From NCBI GenBank assembly GCA_025451075.1, contig JANWLA010000019.1:1-55215 (forward strand): 55,215 bases of DNA, in the 5' to 3' direction. Of this stretch, positions 3,553 through 46,307 are shown piece by piece (positions within the stretch are counted from its first letter, which is position 1; each line of letters opens with the position of its first letter). Both the position numbers and the translations under genes were made by a program. This stretch comes from Nitrosotalea sp. GTDB lineage: Archaea; Thermoproteota; Nitrososphaeria; Nitrososphaerales; Nitrosopumilaceae. The notes below the pieces were generated by a model that was not told the origin of the DNA, ran no database searches, and saw only the letters and a program-made list of their open reading frames with translations.

Positions 3553-4005
3553 CTAGACAATTCCGCATTTTTCATAATATTGTTGGTGATACTCTTCAGC
3601 CTTGTAAAACTCTACTGCAGGTACAATCTCGGTTACAATTTTTCTGCCATACTTGCCGGATTTCTCAAGTCTTTCTTTTGACTGGCTTGCTTCTTTTTCT
3701 TGCTCAGGAGTATGGTAAAAGACAGCGGATCTATACTGAGTTCCAACATCAGGCCCCTGTCGGTTCAGCGTAGTAGGGTCATGGTTATTCCAAAATATAT
3801 CTAGAATTTCATTGTATGAAATTTTCAATGGATCATATTCTACTTGGATAACCTCTGCATGTCCAGTCATATCGGTGCAGACATCTTCATAGGTTGGGTT
3901 TTTTGTCTTTCCTCCCATGTAACCTACACTTGTTGAAGTTATTCCTTTTTTTCTAAAATCTCGTTCTATGCACCAGAAACATCCTGCGCCAAAAGTAGCT
4001 TTCAT
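3553..4005 (-). CDS. msrA: peptide-methionine (S)-S-oxide reductase MsrA
   Basis: MsrA reduces methionine-S-sulfoxide in oxidised proteins in the cytoplasm, using thioredoxin-type donors. The 150-residue protein opens with the diagnostic GCFWC motif, with catalytic Cys9. It keeps the [12 protein letters not shown] block (about 48-59), the FWNNHDPTT segment and the YRSAVF motif. A C-terminal Cys (KCGIV, about residue 147) can act as the resolving cysteine. The length is typical of short archaeal MsrA. It is probably transcribed alone. Confidence 0.96.
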
Positions 4006-4036
4006 GAATTATCTTTCACCACACCGGAATTAAATT

Positions 4037-5284
4037 CTATCTAGAGAACAAGTAAAGTGATTTTGCCACATCTTGATCAGACACTTTTCCATCTGCCCAT
4101 AGACAGAGTGTTGTCTTGTCTGGAGTCTGGCCAACAGAATCGCCCTGGACAGACATCATACCATTTGAAACAAGATATTTCATGCTAGAGGATAACTGGC
4201 TGTCAGTTATGTCTCCAGTGCACCAAAATCCCACAGTCTTTTTGGTCCATGTCGGAATATGACTTTGAGTTTGAAGTACATCAACTACAAATGTCTTGAC
4301 TACAGAATTTCCATCTTGATCTCTAGCTGCACATGTAACTGTCGTAGTTCCCATCATGAAAAAAGAGCCCGACGGAGGATCGCATTGCGGTGTCTGCAAA
4401 TTTGACAAAATTGTAGAGTTGATGTAATTGACATTTGCCCCAACTGAATTTGTGGCGTAAAAAGTTAGAGGCGTAGGTGGCATCAGGTGCTGTGAACTAG
4501 CAAGACCTGTAGAGTCAGAACTTGAAGAAGAACTAGGCGTACTGTAAGAACCCCCTCCCACCGTAACAAATACGCTTGAAGGCATGGACGGATCGGTGAA
4601 CCTGAATTCCAATGTAGAGCCCATTTCTACGGTAGATCCATCAATTGACTGGGGTATCTTGACATTTACCTCAAATGTGTCTGTGTTTGGCCCAGTCTCC
4701 CTTAGCGTATATGGATTAACTTGAAATGTACTGTCTGCAAGTGTGGTTTGTACTCCTCCCATATGGACTTCAATCATGTTAAGCGGAATATCGTCAGGTG
4801 TTTGCGAATCAAGATTATAGTTTGGTGCATATATGCTCAGTTTGAAATACTGACCGATTCGAACATTTGGTGCAGAACTTTCAACAGGACTTGATGGAGT
4901 ACCACTGAGAACTACAGATTGTGTTACATCAGTTGGATTGCCAGAATTATCAGCTCGCTGGTGATACGTCATCAGAACAACATCTCCATCTTGTAATGGT
5001 TTTCCATTAACAGAATCTGGCAATGTCAACTCAAGTTGGAAGACTCCAGTGTCTATTCCAGTTTCTACCATTTCTCCAGGTCCTGATACAGGAGTACCGT
5101 TTATTGTAAAATCAACTAGTCCAGATGTTGATATGTTCATCACTGCCCTATGATCAGTGGACAGATTAGAGTCTGTGACGTAAAAAGTTATAACAGTTCC
5201 AGGGGTTGCAGGCTCGGCATACGAAAGAGACATTGGCAATAAAAGAAAGATGAGAGAAAATCCAGTTGTCTTGAAAATATTCAT
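4037..5284 (-). CDS. secreted multidomain surface protein with HYR domain
   Basis: The protein has 415 residues. Signal peptide is 1-23 (ending SLSYA). Two related beta modules carry the motif ETG-x-(D/N)TG-x-F (about 68-78 and 190-198). A Ser-rich linker follows, then a HYR-type Ig module (PPSGSFFMMG...VTCAARDQDGN, about 295-340). A C-terminal segment, IPTWTKKTVGFWCTGDITDS, is a degenerate copy of the W-x(6)-WW-x-G-x-I repeat common at the ends of thaumarchaeal secreted proteins. No membrane anchor is seen. It overlaps the upstream MarR gene by 4 bp (ATGA), so the two are co-transcribed. A 412-residue protein at 50835 shares the ETGPNTG modules. Confidence 0.78.
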   Translation of the reverse strand: MNIFKTTGFSLIFLLLPMSLSYAEPATPGTVITFYVTDSNLSTDHRAVMNISTSGLVDFTINGTPVSGPGEMVETGIDTGVFQLELTLPDSVNGKPLQDGDVVLMTYHQRADNSGNPTDVTQSVVLSGTPSSPVESSAPNVRIGQYFKLSIYAPNYNLDSQTPDDIPLNMIEVHMGGVQTTLADSTFQVNPYTLRETGPNTDTFEVNVKIPQSIDGSTVEMGSTLEFRFTDPSMPSSVFVTVGGGSYSTPSSSSSSDSTGLASSQHLMPPTPLTFYATNSVGANVNYINSTILSNLQTPQCDPPSGSFFMMGTTTVTCAARDQDGNSVVKTFVVDVLQTQSHIPTWTKKTVGFWCTGDITDSQLSSSMKYLVSNGMMSVQGDSVGQTPDKTTLCLWADGKVSDQDVAKSLYLFSR

Positions 5285-5833: not shown

Positions 5834-6514
5834 ATGTCTGGGTTCGGAACAACAAGAATTTTGATGCTAGCCGTGATTACAGTCTCAAGTGTAACATATT
5901 TTGGCACATACAACCCAGCATTTGCCTTGACATCATCAAGCCAGTTTGGAAACCAGACCATAACAGGCAATGATCTGAAAAACAACCCCATGGTTGCAAA
6001 GATCCTAAGCGAAATCGAATACTCTAAAAAGCAAGTAGCAGAGTTACAAAAAAATCAAAAGGACCAAGAGGAGAACGCACAGCTTATTGCACAGCAGAGA
6101 TTGATTGCAAAACAGCTAGAGGACCAGGCATATCAGATACTTCAAACTCAGACGGCATATAACAGCACAGACAATGCATATGGCAGATTTCTTGATACCA
6201 TTCCATCCAATGATACAAAGAACGTATTTCATGACGAATTTGCATTTACAAAACAAAGAGTAGATGCAGGCCATGTTGCCATGCAAAAAGTACTTGCAAA
6301 TGGCGGTACCTGGGAGGATGCAATGCAGGAATTTTCAAAATATGCCGCAATAAGATACACCGAAATGATATCAGTCAATCAAGCACTCAATGACAAGTAC
6401 ATTCACCACTCAGATAGTGCAAACATGACTTCGATACCATTTGATCAATACGGCAAGGTTCCAGAGGATTACATCAAAATTCCAGAAACAGTGTCAAACC
6501 ATGCACGGACATAA
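5834..6514 (+). CDS. secreted coiled-coil protein, paralogue of the 45681 product
   Basis: The protein has 226 residues from the ATG at 5834. The open frame reaches far upstream, but only this start gives a signal peptide (about 1-31, ending NPAFA) and a TATA box 25 bp before it. Residues 55-110 are a Gln/Lys-rich coiled coil (VAELQKNQKDQEE...). Residues 120-200 hold a conserved block: AYGRFLD, then FHDEFAFTKQRVDAGHVAMQKVLANGG, here given only in part. The product encoded at 45681 has the same blocks in the same order. The gene overlaps the next one by 14 bp. Function is unknown; the layout fits a surface or pseudoperiplasmic stalk-like protein. Confidence 0.75.
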   Translation: MSGFGTTRILMLAVITVSSVTYFGTYNPAFALTSSSQFGNQTITGNDLKNNPMVAKILSEIEYSKKQVAELQKNQKDQEENAQLIAQQRLIAKQLEDQAYQILQTQTAYNSTDNAYGRFLDTIPSNDTKNVFHDEFAFTKQRVDAGHVAMQKVLANGGTWEDAMQEFSKYAAIRYTEMISVNQALNDKYIHHSDSANMTSIPFDQYGKVPEDYIKIPETVSNHART

Positions 6515-43264: not shown

Positions 43265-44422
43265 CTAGATTTGGGCCATTCCCACAATTGCTCTTGGAAA
43301 AACATCTTTGTGTTGCTCTTCTGTCTTGAGATATTCCTCGTATCCTCCAATTGGTTGCAGTGATTTTGCATCCATGATATGATACTTTGAAATCTTTGCG
43401 CGACAAAACAGGTCTTCTAGATCATCTTTTGAGAACCATTTAGAGTAGACACCTTTTGATGTTCGAAGTATTGCGTTTTCCACATCTTGCTTTGAGCCAA
43501 CTATATCTCCTACTGTTCTTTTTACCTCCCTGCCGTAGAATTTTTTTAATCCAAAATCCTTGAAGAGTTTCTTGTTAAAGACAGATACTATAATGGTTCC
43601 ATGTGGAGATGCAAGACGTTTCATTGACTTTAGCATCTGTACCTGAAGTTCTGTATTTTCCTGGTTTCCAAGTGTCTGGAACGTACACACCACTACCTTG
43701 TGGGTGTCATCGAGCATTTTTTTATTTAGGTTAAAGTTTTGTGCAACTCCGGTGACTGGAAATATCCTCTTGTCAAGAAATGACCCAAGGCCATATTTTT
43801 TGAGCAACCTAGCAGAATGAGATATCATCTCTTCAGAGTAGTCTATTCCAATTACATATCTCAGGTTTTTTTCATATGTTTCATCGTACTGGTACAGCCT
43901 TGCCGTTTCAGGATTTTTTTTAAGATCCTTGCATGAATTTATGCCAATCTTTGAGCCAAGAAGAAGAAGGTACCTCCCAGGCCCCGAGCCTGCATCAACA
44001 AAAGTCACCTGCTTTTTTTTCAAAATGGAACCAAGATAATTTGTGATAAATATTTCTTCGAATCTTTCATAGGACCTTGCAGACCAGGCGGCTTCGGTTG
44101 GGTGGACTACATTTCTAAAGTACTGCCTTGCCATGTACTTGCTTGCAATTATTCCTTTTATCAAGTCATGATCGTTTTTTGATAGCCCGCCAACGTAGAA
44201 TTTGTCTTTTATTTTTCTTGCAAGAATTCCTTTTGCACAGATTTCATTTCTCATGCTTGGGGCAAGTAAGTTCAGATAATCATTTTTGAAGACATACCCA
44301 GACTTGCAATTTGTGCAAAATACATTTTCTTTTTTTTGGTTTACCTTACCAAACTGTAACTCGCAGTCACACACAGAACAGTTTGCAATGATATCTTTAC
44401 CGGTAAATGTGGACAAGATCAC
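43265..44422 (-). CDS. SAM-dependent methyltransferase with N-terminal zinc ribbon
   Basis: The protein has 385 residues, GTG start. An N-terminal ribbon carries CSVC-D-C and CTNC (about 15-40), like the Trm112-type zinc ribbon. The Rossmann methyltransferase core follows: VDAGSGPGRYLLL (motif I, about 140-152), VIGIDYSEEMI (motif II) and FPVTGVAQNFNL, then VVVCTFQTLGN. The substrate is unknown. The start overlaps the end of the regulator gene by 4 bp (GTGA), so both are one operon under the palindromes at 45237-45332. Confidence 0.87.
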   Translation of the reverse strand: MILSTFTGKDIIANCSVCDCELQFGKVNQKKENVFCTNCKSGYVFKNDYLNLLAPSMRNEICAKGILARKIKDKFYVGGLSKNDHDLIKGIIASKYMARQYFRNVVHPTEAAWSARSYERFEEIFITNYLGSILKKKQVTFVDAGSGPGRYLLLLGSKIGINSCKDLKKNPETARLYQYDETYEKNLRYVIGIDYSEEMISHSARLLKKYGLGSFLDKRIFPVTGVAQNFNLNKKMLDDTHKVVVCTFQTLGNQENTELQVQMLKSMKRLASPHGTIIVSVFNKKLFKDFGLKKFYGREVKRTVGDIVGSKQDVENAILRTSKGVYSKWFSKDDLEDLFCRAKISKYHIMDAKSLQPIGGYEEYLKTEEQHKDVFPRAIVGMAQI

Positions 44423-45198
44423 TTGTCGGACTTGGCATCATATGCATCTTCATCGCTTTTCTTTTTGGCAACCTTTTGCTTTGACGAGCCCTCATCTTTT
44501 ATGTAGGTGTCATAGGTGCGATACACTTGTCGTATTGTTTTCAAGTATGATTCAAAGTCAGGAAGTTTTATTGGCTCATAAAAGTAATTCATGTGAACCT
44601 TTGTCAAGTTGTTCTTTGAAATCCCCACACCCTCAAGCACATGGATTGGCTTGCTGTCAACAGAATGCACCCAGCCAAGTGACCTGATTTTTTCTACCAT
44701 CTCTTCAAAGTGCCCAAGTTCATTTGTTACAATTCTTAAAATAAAGTCATAGTTCTGGCCCTCTCCTTGAACCACATCAATTGTTGTAACTATACCATAC
44801 TCCCGGCTTATCTCCACTAGATTATTGTACATCTCAGAGTATGGGATGACCCGTCTCTCAAAGAGCGGGTTCTGGGTCTTGATAAAAGTATACCATTGGT
44901 TATCAAACAGTTTGCTTGGATCAACTAGGATCCATTTTATCTTGTCATCTCGCTTGCTGTCAGCAGTGTTGTTATGCTCTAAGATGACGCCTTTTTTTAC
45001 CAGGTCTTCTATTCTGCTTTTTACATTTTCTCGCGATAGCATATAGCCATGATTCTCAAGTTCCTTGTTTGCAGTATCAGGCGTAGCACCGCCTTGTAAA
45101 ATTTGTAATATTAGCACATCAAGTGGGCTGATGTTGTTCTTTGTAAGATTCTTCATAGGGATTGCGCCCTCTTGGTTATCTGTTCCTCTGCCTACCAT
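44419..45198 (-). CDS. winged-helix transcriptional regulator (Lrp/AsnC-like architecture)
   Basis: The protein has 259 residues, operon partner of the methyltransferase gene. An N-terminal wHTH (SPLDVLILQILQGGATPDTA, RENVKSRIEDLVKKGVI) is followed by alpha-beta segments like a RAM-type domain (GIVTTIDVVQGEGQNYDFIL and FEEMVEKIRSLGWVHSVDSK) that could bind a ligand. A basic, acidic-rich disordered tail ends the chain (QKVAKKKSDEDAYD). It is the likely reader of the two palindromes just upstream. Confidence 0.82.
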   Translation of the reverse strand: MVGRGTDNQEGAIPMKNLTKNNISPLDVLILQILQGGATPDTANKELENHGYMLSRENVKSRIEDLVKKGVILEHNNTADSKRDDKIKWILVDPSKLFDNQWYTFIKTQNPLFERRVIPYSEMYNNLVEISREYGIVTTIDVVQGEGQNYDFILRIVTNELGHFEEMVEKIRSLGWVHSVDSKPIHVLEGVGISKNNLTKVHMNYFYEPIKLPDFESYLKTIRQVYRTYDTYIKDEGSSKQKVAKKKSDEDAYDAKSDK

Positions 45199-45236: not shown

Positions 45237-45332
45237 ACATTTTTGTCGCAAAAATGTTAAAACGCCAATATTTCAGGCATGGTCATCTGGAACCATTCAG
45301 GAAAGTTGCCCACATTTTTGCGGCAAAATGTG
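45237..45332. promoter_or_regulatory. pair of similar palindromic operators between divergent genes
   Basis: Site 1 (45237-45257) is ACATTTTTG-tcg-CAAAAATGT, a perfect 9-bp inverted repeat. Site 2 (45311-45332) is CACATTTT-tgcggc-AAAATGTG with 8-bp arms. Both share the core ACATTTTTG..GCAAAA(A)TGT, 74-75 bp apart, in the 171-bp gap between the wHTH gene (minus) and the zinc-finger gene (plus). A TTTATAAT box (45342-45349) lies just right of site 2, about 25 bp before ATG 45370. Two-site looping by the wHTH regulator is plausible. Confidence 0.7.
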
Positions 45333-45369
45333 TTCTAAGTGATTTATAATTTCTCTGACAAGTGATACC

Positions 45370-45597
45370 ATGACAGCAATACCAGCAGTCGAAAAAACAG
45401 AGACAGCAAAATGCAGCACGTGTGCTTGCGACTGTGCAAAACTGTGCACCCAGTGTGGAAGAAACTTTTGCACCAAGCACTTGATGGGACACGCTGAAAA
45501 ATGCAGTGGCTACAAGTCAATCGTACAAAAAATACTTCGAGATGACATGACCGAAATTGTAAGACAAGTCGTGGAGGCAGTGCTAAAAACGATATGA
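45370..45597 (+). CDS. AN1-like zinc-finger protein
   Basis: The protein has 75 residues. The cysteine/histidine array CSTCACDC, CTQCGRNFC and CTKHLMGHAEKC resembles an AN1/B-box-style double zinc site. A C-terminal amphipathic helix follows (MTEIVRQVVEAVLKTI). In eukaryotes AN1 proteins contact ubiquitin and the proteasome; in archaea the role is unknown. The TATA box at 45342-45349 makes it leaderless. A hammerhead ribozyme begins 12 bp after its stop codon. Confidence 0.8.
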   Translation: MTAIPAVEKTETAKCSTCACDCAKLCTQCGRNFCTKHLMGHAEKCSGYKSIVQKILRDDMTEIVRQVVEAVLKTI

Positions 45598-45608
45598 CTA
45601 CTGGCAAA

Positions 45609-45654
45609 TCCCCTGAAGAGTCCGTGAGACCCGGACGAAACAACATTGTCGGGA
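45609..45654 (+). ncRNA. type I hammerhead self-cleaving ribozyme
   Basis: All core bases are present in order. Stem I is TCCC (45609-45612) with GGGA (45651-45654). The CTGAAGA box (C3-A9) is at 45613-45619. Stem II is GTCCG (45620-45624) with CGGAC (45632-45636), 5 bp, loop TGAGACC. GAAA (G12-A15.1) is at 45637-45640. Stem III pairs A45640-T45649, C45641-G45648 and one or two A-T pairs, with a very small loop. The cleavage triplet is GTC (45648-45650), so cutting is expected between 45650 and 45651, 30 nt before the AUG at 45681. The weak stem III resembles short-stem eukaryotic type I forms. Confidence 0.9.
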
Positions 45655-45680
45655 GAAAACTAGGAGGTGAAACATAGAGA

Positions 45681-46307
45681 ATGAATGGAACCAAAATACA
45701 GTTAGCTCTTGCAATTAGTGCAGGATCACTGCTACTAAGTGCAAGCTATTTGGGATTTGCATGGGCTGACACTGGCCAAGATTCTTTAGGTAACATAAAC
45801 ATCAAGGCAAGCGATGCAATAAAGAACGATCCTGCTGCAATGAAGATATTATACAATATTGAACTCTTCAAGCAACAATACGCAGCACAGCAGGCAAAGC
45901 AAGACTTGCAGGACCAGCAGCAAAAATTGATTGACCAGCAACGCCAACTTGCAAACCAATACTTGCAGGCAGACCTTGCAAAATCAAGCAGCCAAGACGC
46001 AAGCAGCCCAGCAAATGCATATGCAGGCTTTGTAAGCAAAGTCGATAGCTCAGCACAAGGAGTATTCTTGGATGAGTTTGCATACATGCAGCAAAAAGCC
46101 GCACAGGGAAAACTTGCAATGGACAAAGTGTTGCAAAATGGAGGCTCACGCGATGAAGCACTCAATGCATACTATAGTGGAGCTGCAACCCAGAAAACAG
46201 AATTGGTAAGTGTCAACAAGGACATTAACATAAAGTATCACCTTGCAGACACAAACACCCAAGATCTGTTCAACAAGGACGGGAACTTGAAAAAGTACTC
46301 GTCATAG
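45681..46307 (+). CDS. secreted coiled-coil protein behind a hammerhead ribozyme
   Basis: The protein has 208 residues. The signal peptide is about 1-30, ending GFAWA. Residues 55-115 are a Gln-rich coiled coil (QDQQQKLIDQQRQLANQYL). The conserved block ANAYAGFVSKVDSS, then FLDEFAYMQQKAAQGKLAMD and KVLQNGGSRDEAL, matches the product of the 5834 gene. AGGAGGTGA at 45662-45670 is a perfect ribosome binding site, 10 bp before the ATG and downstream of the predicted ribozyme cut, so the cleaved 3' fragment still carries everything needed for translation. Function of the protein is unknown. Confidence 0.8.
   Translation: MNGTKIQLALAISAGSLLLSASYLGFAWADTGQDSLGNINIKASDAIKNDPAAMKILYNIELFKQQYAAQQAKQDLQDQQQKLIDQQRQLANQYLQADLAKSSSQDASSPANAYAGFVSKVDSSAQGVFLDEFAYMQQKAAQGKLAMDKVLQNGGSRDEALNAYYSGAATQKTELVSVNKDINIKYHLADTNTQDLFNKDGNLKKYSS

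Follow-up and report, generated by a model that had tools for sequence, protein, structure and literature searches.

A type I hammerhead ribozyme predicted between two genes of Ca. Nitrosotalea and retained in 24 genomes

Between a gene for a small zinc-finger-like protein and a gene for a putative secreted protein of Nitrosotalea sp. lies a short stretch of RNA with the look of a self-cutting ribozyme, which raises the question of whether it is a genuine hammerhead ribozyme (HHR) and what it would do between two cellular genes. The locus is part of a 55,215-nt stretch of DNA, hereafter the window. Hammerheads share the core CUGANGA...GAA(A) with U16.1 and H17, and in the numbering of this class the NUH rule gives the position of the cut. 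The initial annotation had described a complete type I hammerhead at this place; direct reading confirmed its core and its three stems, and the Rfam family RF00163 (Hammerhead_1) matched at 45607-45656, the reading and the alignment agreeing on a type I topology with loops on stems II and III and an open stem I (Table 1). Motif and comparative evidence together identify this predicted self-cutting RNA as a type I hammerhead.

Table 1. Positions of the ribozyme parts and of the surrounding features in the window.
Feature	Position	Strand	Details and basis
Type I hammerhead ribozyme (predicted), stem I open	45609..45654	+	Direct reading, RF00163, model R1, 24 genomes
Stem I, 4 bp	TCCC 45609-45612 / GGGA 45651-45654	+	Direct reading
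Core CUGANGA	45613..45619	+	Here CUGAAGA (DNA CTGAAGA); direct reading
Stem II, 5 bp	45620..45636	+	GTCCG 45620-45624 / CGGAC 45632-45636; loop UGAGACC, 7 nt
GAA of the HHR core	45637-45639	+	Direct reading
Stem III, 3 bp	45640..45649	+	ACA 45640-45642 / TGT 45647-45649; 4-nt loop
Predicted cleavage site	45650..45651	+	After H17 = C45650; hammerhead rule
Upstream ORF, zinc-finger-like	45370..45597	+	75 aa; Cx2C..Cx2Cx4Cx2Hx3H; stop 11 nt before HHR
Downstream ORF, secreted-protein gene	45681..46307	+	208 aa; N-terminus resembles a signal peptide by eye; helical by prediction
TATA box (GATTTATAATTT)	45341..45352	+	29 nt ahead of the zinc-finger ATG
Predicted 30-nt 5' leader of the downstream message	45651..45680	+	Shine-Dalgarno (SD) AGGAGGTGA at 45662-45670, 11 nt past the cut
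Divergent regulator-like ORF	44419..45198	-	Winged-helix and Lrp/AsnC matches weak, none reaching the Pfam cut-off
Two TTTTGNNGCAAAA palindromes	45241..45328	.	45241-45253 and 45316-45328, divergent promoter region

RF00163 scored the site with 27.6 bits (E 3.9e-5 on 181 bases, at an E-value threshold), and genome-wide, over 1.66 Mb, it was the sole match at E <=0.001 (E 8.6e-5). The initial annotation had named the Rfam score as a check: the 27.6 bits lie under the gathering score of 34 bits, so that the HHR is not claimed here as an Rfam-called member, and at the gathering threshold Rfam gave no match within the whole window. An orthologue in genome G190 scored 24.7 bits. RF00008 gave no match and neither did its controls, which makes that search uninformative. 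A rule for core and stems, with minimum stem lengths that had been set so that the HHR site passes, found a single match in the window, at this site; 300 first-order Markov copies gave none. By energy folding alone the hammerhead is not singled out: the z value of the window HHR was -0.72, with 44 of 200 shuffles folding equally well, and the bare hammerhead structure reached -9.1 kcal/mol versus -11.6 kcal/mol for the MFE. Among the 24 orthologous copies that we compared, the MFE structure always differed from the hammerhead, by 0.2 to 5 kcal/mol, and in seven (L010, L011, L014, L019-L022) it retained stems II and III, only stem I being shifted. A chance resemblance could be argued from the shortness of the motif and from a score under the Rfam cut-off, but the genome-wide E-value, the Markov copies and the occurrence in 24 orthologous loci led us to reject it, and its probability is practically nil. 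The initial estimate that chance was very unlikely is strengthened by the comparative data, that is, the 24 orthologous copies and the constraint on them, which make chance untenable.

After searching 250 genomes of the family with the secreted protein, matches of 52-100% identity were obtained in 24, and the HHR was located just upstream of the gene in all 24 of these close orthologues. Because the orthologues were found by protein search, presence of the HHR had not been a criterion for their selection. They come from 20 of the 37 genomes of Ca. Nitrosotalea, the genus of the window, and from 4 of the 5 genomes of a second genus, and none of the six more distant homologues that were fetched (L027-L032, 37-45% identity) carried an HHR. 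In many-genome mode RF00163 reported only one of the 250 family genomes and missed the window's own copy; because of this insensitivity a covariance model, R1, was built from 11 of the 24 copies, leaving out that of the window. R1 recovered exactly the same 24, once per genome, with 63.6-77.7 bits (63.6 bits for the window), the next best match scoring 25.6 bits among the 28 genomes listed at E 0.1. Because members were used to build the model, independent evidence comes from the 13 unused copies, window included, and from the lack of a second strong copy in any genome. The raw DNA of four weak matches (L057, L058, L061 and L062, 23.1-25.6 bits) was inspected and these were left out as probable chance matches; L059 (22.1 bits), L060 (20.7 bits) and a second match in G005 (22.0 bits) also remained outside the 24. 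L060 (1501-1538), on a contig of 3.3 kb from genome G204, has a core like that of a hammerhead and stems unlike the archaeal ones; by eye it recalls eukaryotic repeat hammerheads, and the contig is possibly contaminating DNA. An exact pattern scan of GTDB genomes found the HHR on 21 named contigs, the carriers including Ca. Nitrosotalea devanaterra (LN890280.1), Ca. Nitrosotalea sp. and thaumarchaeal MAGs.

The 24 orthologous copies comprise 20 distinct sequences, and the required core letters were invariant in all of them. Within CUGANGA only N7 varied (A, U or C), with at least 5 changes on the secreted-protein tree. The cut that had been predicted, 45650^45651, holds by the hammerhead rule, and all 24 copies had C or A, and none had G, at position H17, which changed at least 3 times. 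Stem II showed two independent compensatory double changes, from C-G to U-A, and closed on a loop of the form UGARAYN, while the sequence of the stem III stretch had changed at least 16 times and kept 3-6 contiguous base pairs. The weakness of stem III had initially been taken to favour cleavage as a dimer, an idea that the comparison does not support: the orthologues hold 3-6 contiguous pairs in the same stem, so the window's stem III is the short end of this range. In the alignment used for pair counts, which had been fitted to the structure of the model, 98.6% of the 280 pair cells were standard pairs, and double changes were present in stems II and III (3 pairs, 6 cells). In 500 shuffles the covariation score was never reached and the count of double-changed pairs only twice, and every slid version gave lower values of both; further pair types (3 observed) fell below the shuffled mean of 3.7. 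The 4 bp of stem I have no covariation support, neither for nor against, because their sequence never varies.

In natural hammerheads, loop II and the stem I region are usually joined by a tertiary contact. Visual comparison of the 24 copies revealed neither a conserved outer helix on stem I nor a conserved pairing between loops; an outer helix CUGG/CUAG considered in the window was dropped, since the other copies, also by eye, do not keep the pairing. The flanks of stem I were mostly A-rich and, with loop II being UGARAYN, no pairing or bulge between loop II and stem I could be named. With a stem I of 4 bp and no such outer helix or pairing found, the speed of cleavage at cellular Mg2+ is uncertain. 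The element could also be a conserved RNA or DNA structure, for instance a protein-binding hairpin or an attenuator, that looks like a hammerhead and does not cleave; this would fit the energies, which do not favour the hammerhead, the score under the Rfam cut-off and the predicted nature of the cleavage. We regard it as very improbable, however, given that the core varied only where catalysis tolerates it (N7, and H17 never G) and that the stem changes were compensatory; a binding hairpin would be without reason to obey hammerhead rules.

We then considered the genes on both sides. The arrangement initially described, a zinc-finger-like gene followed by a secreted-protein ORF, was upheld. The name zinc finger stands as regards the Cys/His pattern (Cx2C...Cx2Cx4Cx2Hx3H), which was invariant in 21 aligned copies, but not as a Pfam assignment, since the ORF matched no Pfam family at E 0.1; its profile gave 22 matches to PDB sequences at E <=1, short and mostly to Cys/His fingers, and these led to no family assignment. 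In the 22 readable loci (all but L006 and L011) its stop codon lay 6-23 nt before the HHR. The secreted protein matched no Pfam family at E 0.1, had one NCBIfam match far below cut-off and no PDB fold at E 0.001, and its AlphaFold model had a mean pLDDT of 66.7. A paralogue, 38% identical, is encoded at 5852-6418 of the window, away from the one strong hammerhead of the genome. The only TATA box found was the one ahead of the zinc-finger gene, where 19 of 23 loci had TTTATAATTT, followed by the first ATG at a distance of 23-30 nt (misses: L091, L098 (stretch too short), L093 (disturbed assembly), L103); a crude scan of the stretch between -120 and +75 of the HHR, mostly coding region, detected none of six TATA-like hexamers in 23 of 23 loci. 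A near-leaderless start is expected for the zinc-finger ORF, and the two genes are probably co-transcribed. T-rich DNA followed the secreted ORF in most of the 23 loci.

Direct reading also verified the 30-nt leader, with AGGAGGTGA ahead of the ATG at 45681, that the initial annotation had placed behind the cut. This SD was exact in 19 of the 24 leaders, 9-11 nt past the cut, and GGTGA was found in all 24. In relatives the 16S 3' end carries ATCACCTCCT, complementary to this SD; the 16S 3' end GGATCACCTCCTTA was found in 4 of the 6 relatives searched, and the window's own incomplete genome gave no exact match. Among 56 crude window ORFs of at least 100 aa, just three, the secreted gene included, had an SD of at least 6 nt. 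On the other side of the locus, palindromes similar to TTTTGNNGCAAAA were seen in most relatives read, between the regulator-like gene and the TATA box, and it is possible that they are operators of this co-occurring regulator. Considering the 21 named stretches, the HHR and the secreted gene were together in 21 and the zinc-finger gene was present in 19, with the divergent regulator upstream in 14 (several stretches end before it) and a convergent gene for an FN3 protein downstream in 18 (on the other side in L074, none shown in L067 and L075).

Motif, conservation, covariation, the syntenic, operon-like layout and the positions of TATA box and SD were all computed directly, and from them we favour, with a probability of about 0.7, a functional, host-domesticated type I hammerhead that would split the transcript of a two-gene operon in Ca. 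Nitrosotalea and the second genus. A single transcript would start at the TATA box ahead of the zinc-finger gene and run on through the HHR, and the RNA would cut itself at the predicted site. Hammerhead cleavage leaves a 2',3'-cyclic phosphate and a 5'-OH. The 5' product would accordingly be the message of the zinc-finger gene, with the folded ribozyme and a 2',3'-cyclic phosphate at its 3' end, and the 3' product a separate message for the secreted protein, with a 5'-OH and a 30-nt leader exposing the full-length SD. The benefit may lie in a separate stability or translation of the second message.

An active hammerhead might instead act as a regulator, modulated cleavage setting the level of the secreted protein, with co-transcriptional refolding, translation of the zinc-finger ORF or a protein such as the zinc-finger product as modulators. 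Since the zinc-finger stop lies so close to stem I (6-23 nt in the 22 loci), terminating ribosomes would reach the ribozyme; in the MFE structures of the window and some other copies, moreover, a CCUGA/UCGGG pairing competes with the core, and the presence of palindromes and of a divergent regulator-like gene points to regulation at this locus. The pairing follows from the core letters, however, so its conservation is no separate evidence, and no aptamer-like extra domain was seen, loops II and III being small. We judge this role unlikely.

Comparing 43 genomes (those of the window's genus, of the second genus and G022), the gene pair and the HHR were found to go together. Of the 24 HHR+ genomes, 23 have the zinc-finger gene; in the other, G198, the contig begins 43 nt upstream of the HHR. 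The 19 HHR- genomes yielded no zinc-finger gene, and their secreted homologues reached at best <=45% identity among the matches listed. The regulator-like gene was found in both HHR+ genomes searched for it and in 0 of 19 HHR- genomes. Several HHR- genomes are called 99% complete and one (G180) is a single contig. On an RpoB tree, which covers 28 of the 30 genomes asked, HHR+ and HHR- genomes were interleaved, requiring at least 7 changes, 4 of them forced by starred branches; as few changes for the HHR group were reached by 87 of 500 shuffles. By eye, the groupings of the secreted-protein tree resembled those of the RpoB tree. This patchiness and the presence and absence counts indicate that the cassette comes and goes, whether by loss or by transfer. 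Wherever the gene pair was found the HHR was intact, which suggests that the cell uses it to obtain a separate message for the second gene. In G187 (L093/L108/L023), an assembly with ambiguous bases, the zinc-finger ORF is partly duplicated and the secreted frame is in pieces, and the HHR is intact; the stops inside the secreted matches of G182, G184 and G192 lie in the last two codons of the match.

To place these copies in a wider setting, R1 was run over more distant genomes and the exact pattern over viral contigs. A set of 398 genomes of the phylum added one HHR (G555, 44.5 bits), and 400 genomes of the class yielded another 8, which scored 42.5-58.6 bits and belong to further families of the order. 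Location between genes was seen again in these other archaeal families. Three of the nine additional archaeal HHRs are in proviral head/tail operons. A stop codon precedes the HHR by 0-29 nt in six (L187, L188, L189, L192, L193 and L195) and by about 210 nt in L191 and L194; in L190 the HHR and the last few bases of the upstream ORF overlap, and the next frame is open through the HHR. Downstream, the nearest start codon is within ~25 nt in L187, L188, L189 and L192 and at ~65 nt in L193, whereas none was close behind the HHR in L191, L194 and L195. L187 and L189 have a common operon in two families (37-72% protein identity), in which the HHR stands before a DsbD-like membrane protein. The HHR of L190 comes after an NrfD gene and another ORF, that of L188 and its homologue L192 (72% DNA identity) is before a tail-tube gene, and that of L193 before scaffold and capsid genes; AGGAGGTGA is also present behind the HHR of L188.

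Some of these distant elements deviate from the canonical core. L189 (4001-4057, + strand) has the U4C core variant CCGAAGA in the same operon that bears a canonical copy in L187. L191 and L194 (each 4001-4055, - strand) are hammerhead-like elements ~500 nt upstream of a molybdopterin oxidoreductase gene (the gene being read in L191), with cores UUGAUGA and UUGAUAA, that is, C3 changed to U and then G8 to A. C3 and G8 form a pair within the hammerhead core, which these changes would keep as U-A, a natural core covariation. In IMG/VR, the exact pattern with the same loop II class was found in 41 stretches, some with several matches, and the four scored with R1 (L084, L148, L153 and L177) all matched as hammerheads.

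This distribution bears on a further alternative, in which a viral or mobile element left the ribozyme behind as a relic or passenger that still cleaves, is carried along with the cassette and is of no use to the host. The shared loop II class in IMG/VR contigs and archaeal proviral operons, together with the patchy cassette, would be in keeping with it, but the HHR remained intact in all 24 copies even where the secreted proteins had drifted to 52-56% identity to that of the window, and the five neighbouring proteins scanned with Pfam included nothing viral and no integrase; we hold a mere passenger to be quite improbable. The wider archaeal, proviral and IMG/VR occurrences nonetheless led us to a tentative history, in which viral hammerheads may have been taken over by host operons. 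The broader proposal that, across Nitrososphaeria, hammerheads from viral operons were taken over as an operon-splitting device in cellular mRNA maturation is somewhat less probable than even odds would imply.

The RNA itself belongs to a known class, and both leader making and operon cutting by hammerheads have already been described or proposed. Compared with the type I hammerheads of RF00163, the Nitrosotalea HHR shares core, stem order, open stem I and NUH cleavage site, and it differs in its low score (27.6 bits against the cut-off of 34), in a 4-bp stem I without a detectable outer helix and in its fixed location in one archaeal gene pair in 24 genomes. An earlier study, judging from its title, reportedly dealt with archaeal hammerheads found computationally. 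Among open-licence titles and abstract beginnings, we found none naming a Nitrosotalea HHR or a hammerhead fixed genus-wide between cellular archaeal genes. According to one report (PMC3088659), at least three archaeal hammerheads had already been described, and the HHphage hammerhead of haloviruses HF1/HF2 lies 13 nt upstream of a start codon, with a transcript 5' end mapped within three nt of the cleavage site, for which a leader-making role was suggested. The archaeal setting and leader-making placement of HHphage resemble those of the Nitrosotalea HHR. As presented there, however, HHphage belongs to a haloarchaeal virus, is a core variant with insertions and precedes the first ORF of a polycistronic transcript, whereas the Nitrosotalea HHR has a canonical core, stands between two cellular genes and is followed by an SD (PMC3088659). 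The same report describes clustered hammerheads of bacterial prophages, proposed to cut long transcripts into operon- or gene-length mRNAs; these are likewise placed between genes, with gene identities that change, in contrast to the one fixed orthologous host locus of the Nitrosotalea HHR (PMC3088659).

The locus thus presents a hammerhead at a fixed place between two cellular genes, with its required core positions unchanged in 24 genomes and an unusually complete SD behind it, which makes it a candidate example of archaeal mRNA leaders made by a ribozyme. Since named carriers include Ca. Nitrosotalea devanaterra, the question is directly testable by end-mapping. If the proposed takeover of viral hammerheads across Nitrososphaeria were true, a self-cut between stop codon and SD would make a near-leaderless polycistronic transcript yield an independent leadered mRNA, the second message encoding a secreted or respiratory protein, and hammerheads would have a role in cellular mRNA maturation that is conserved at the genus level and above.
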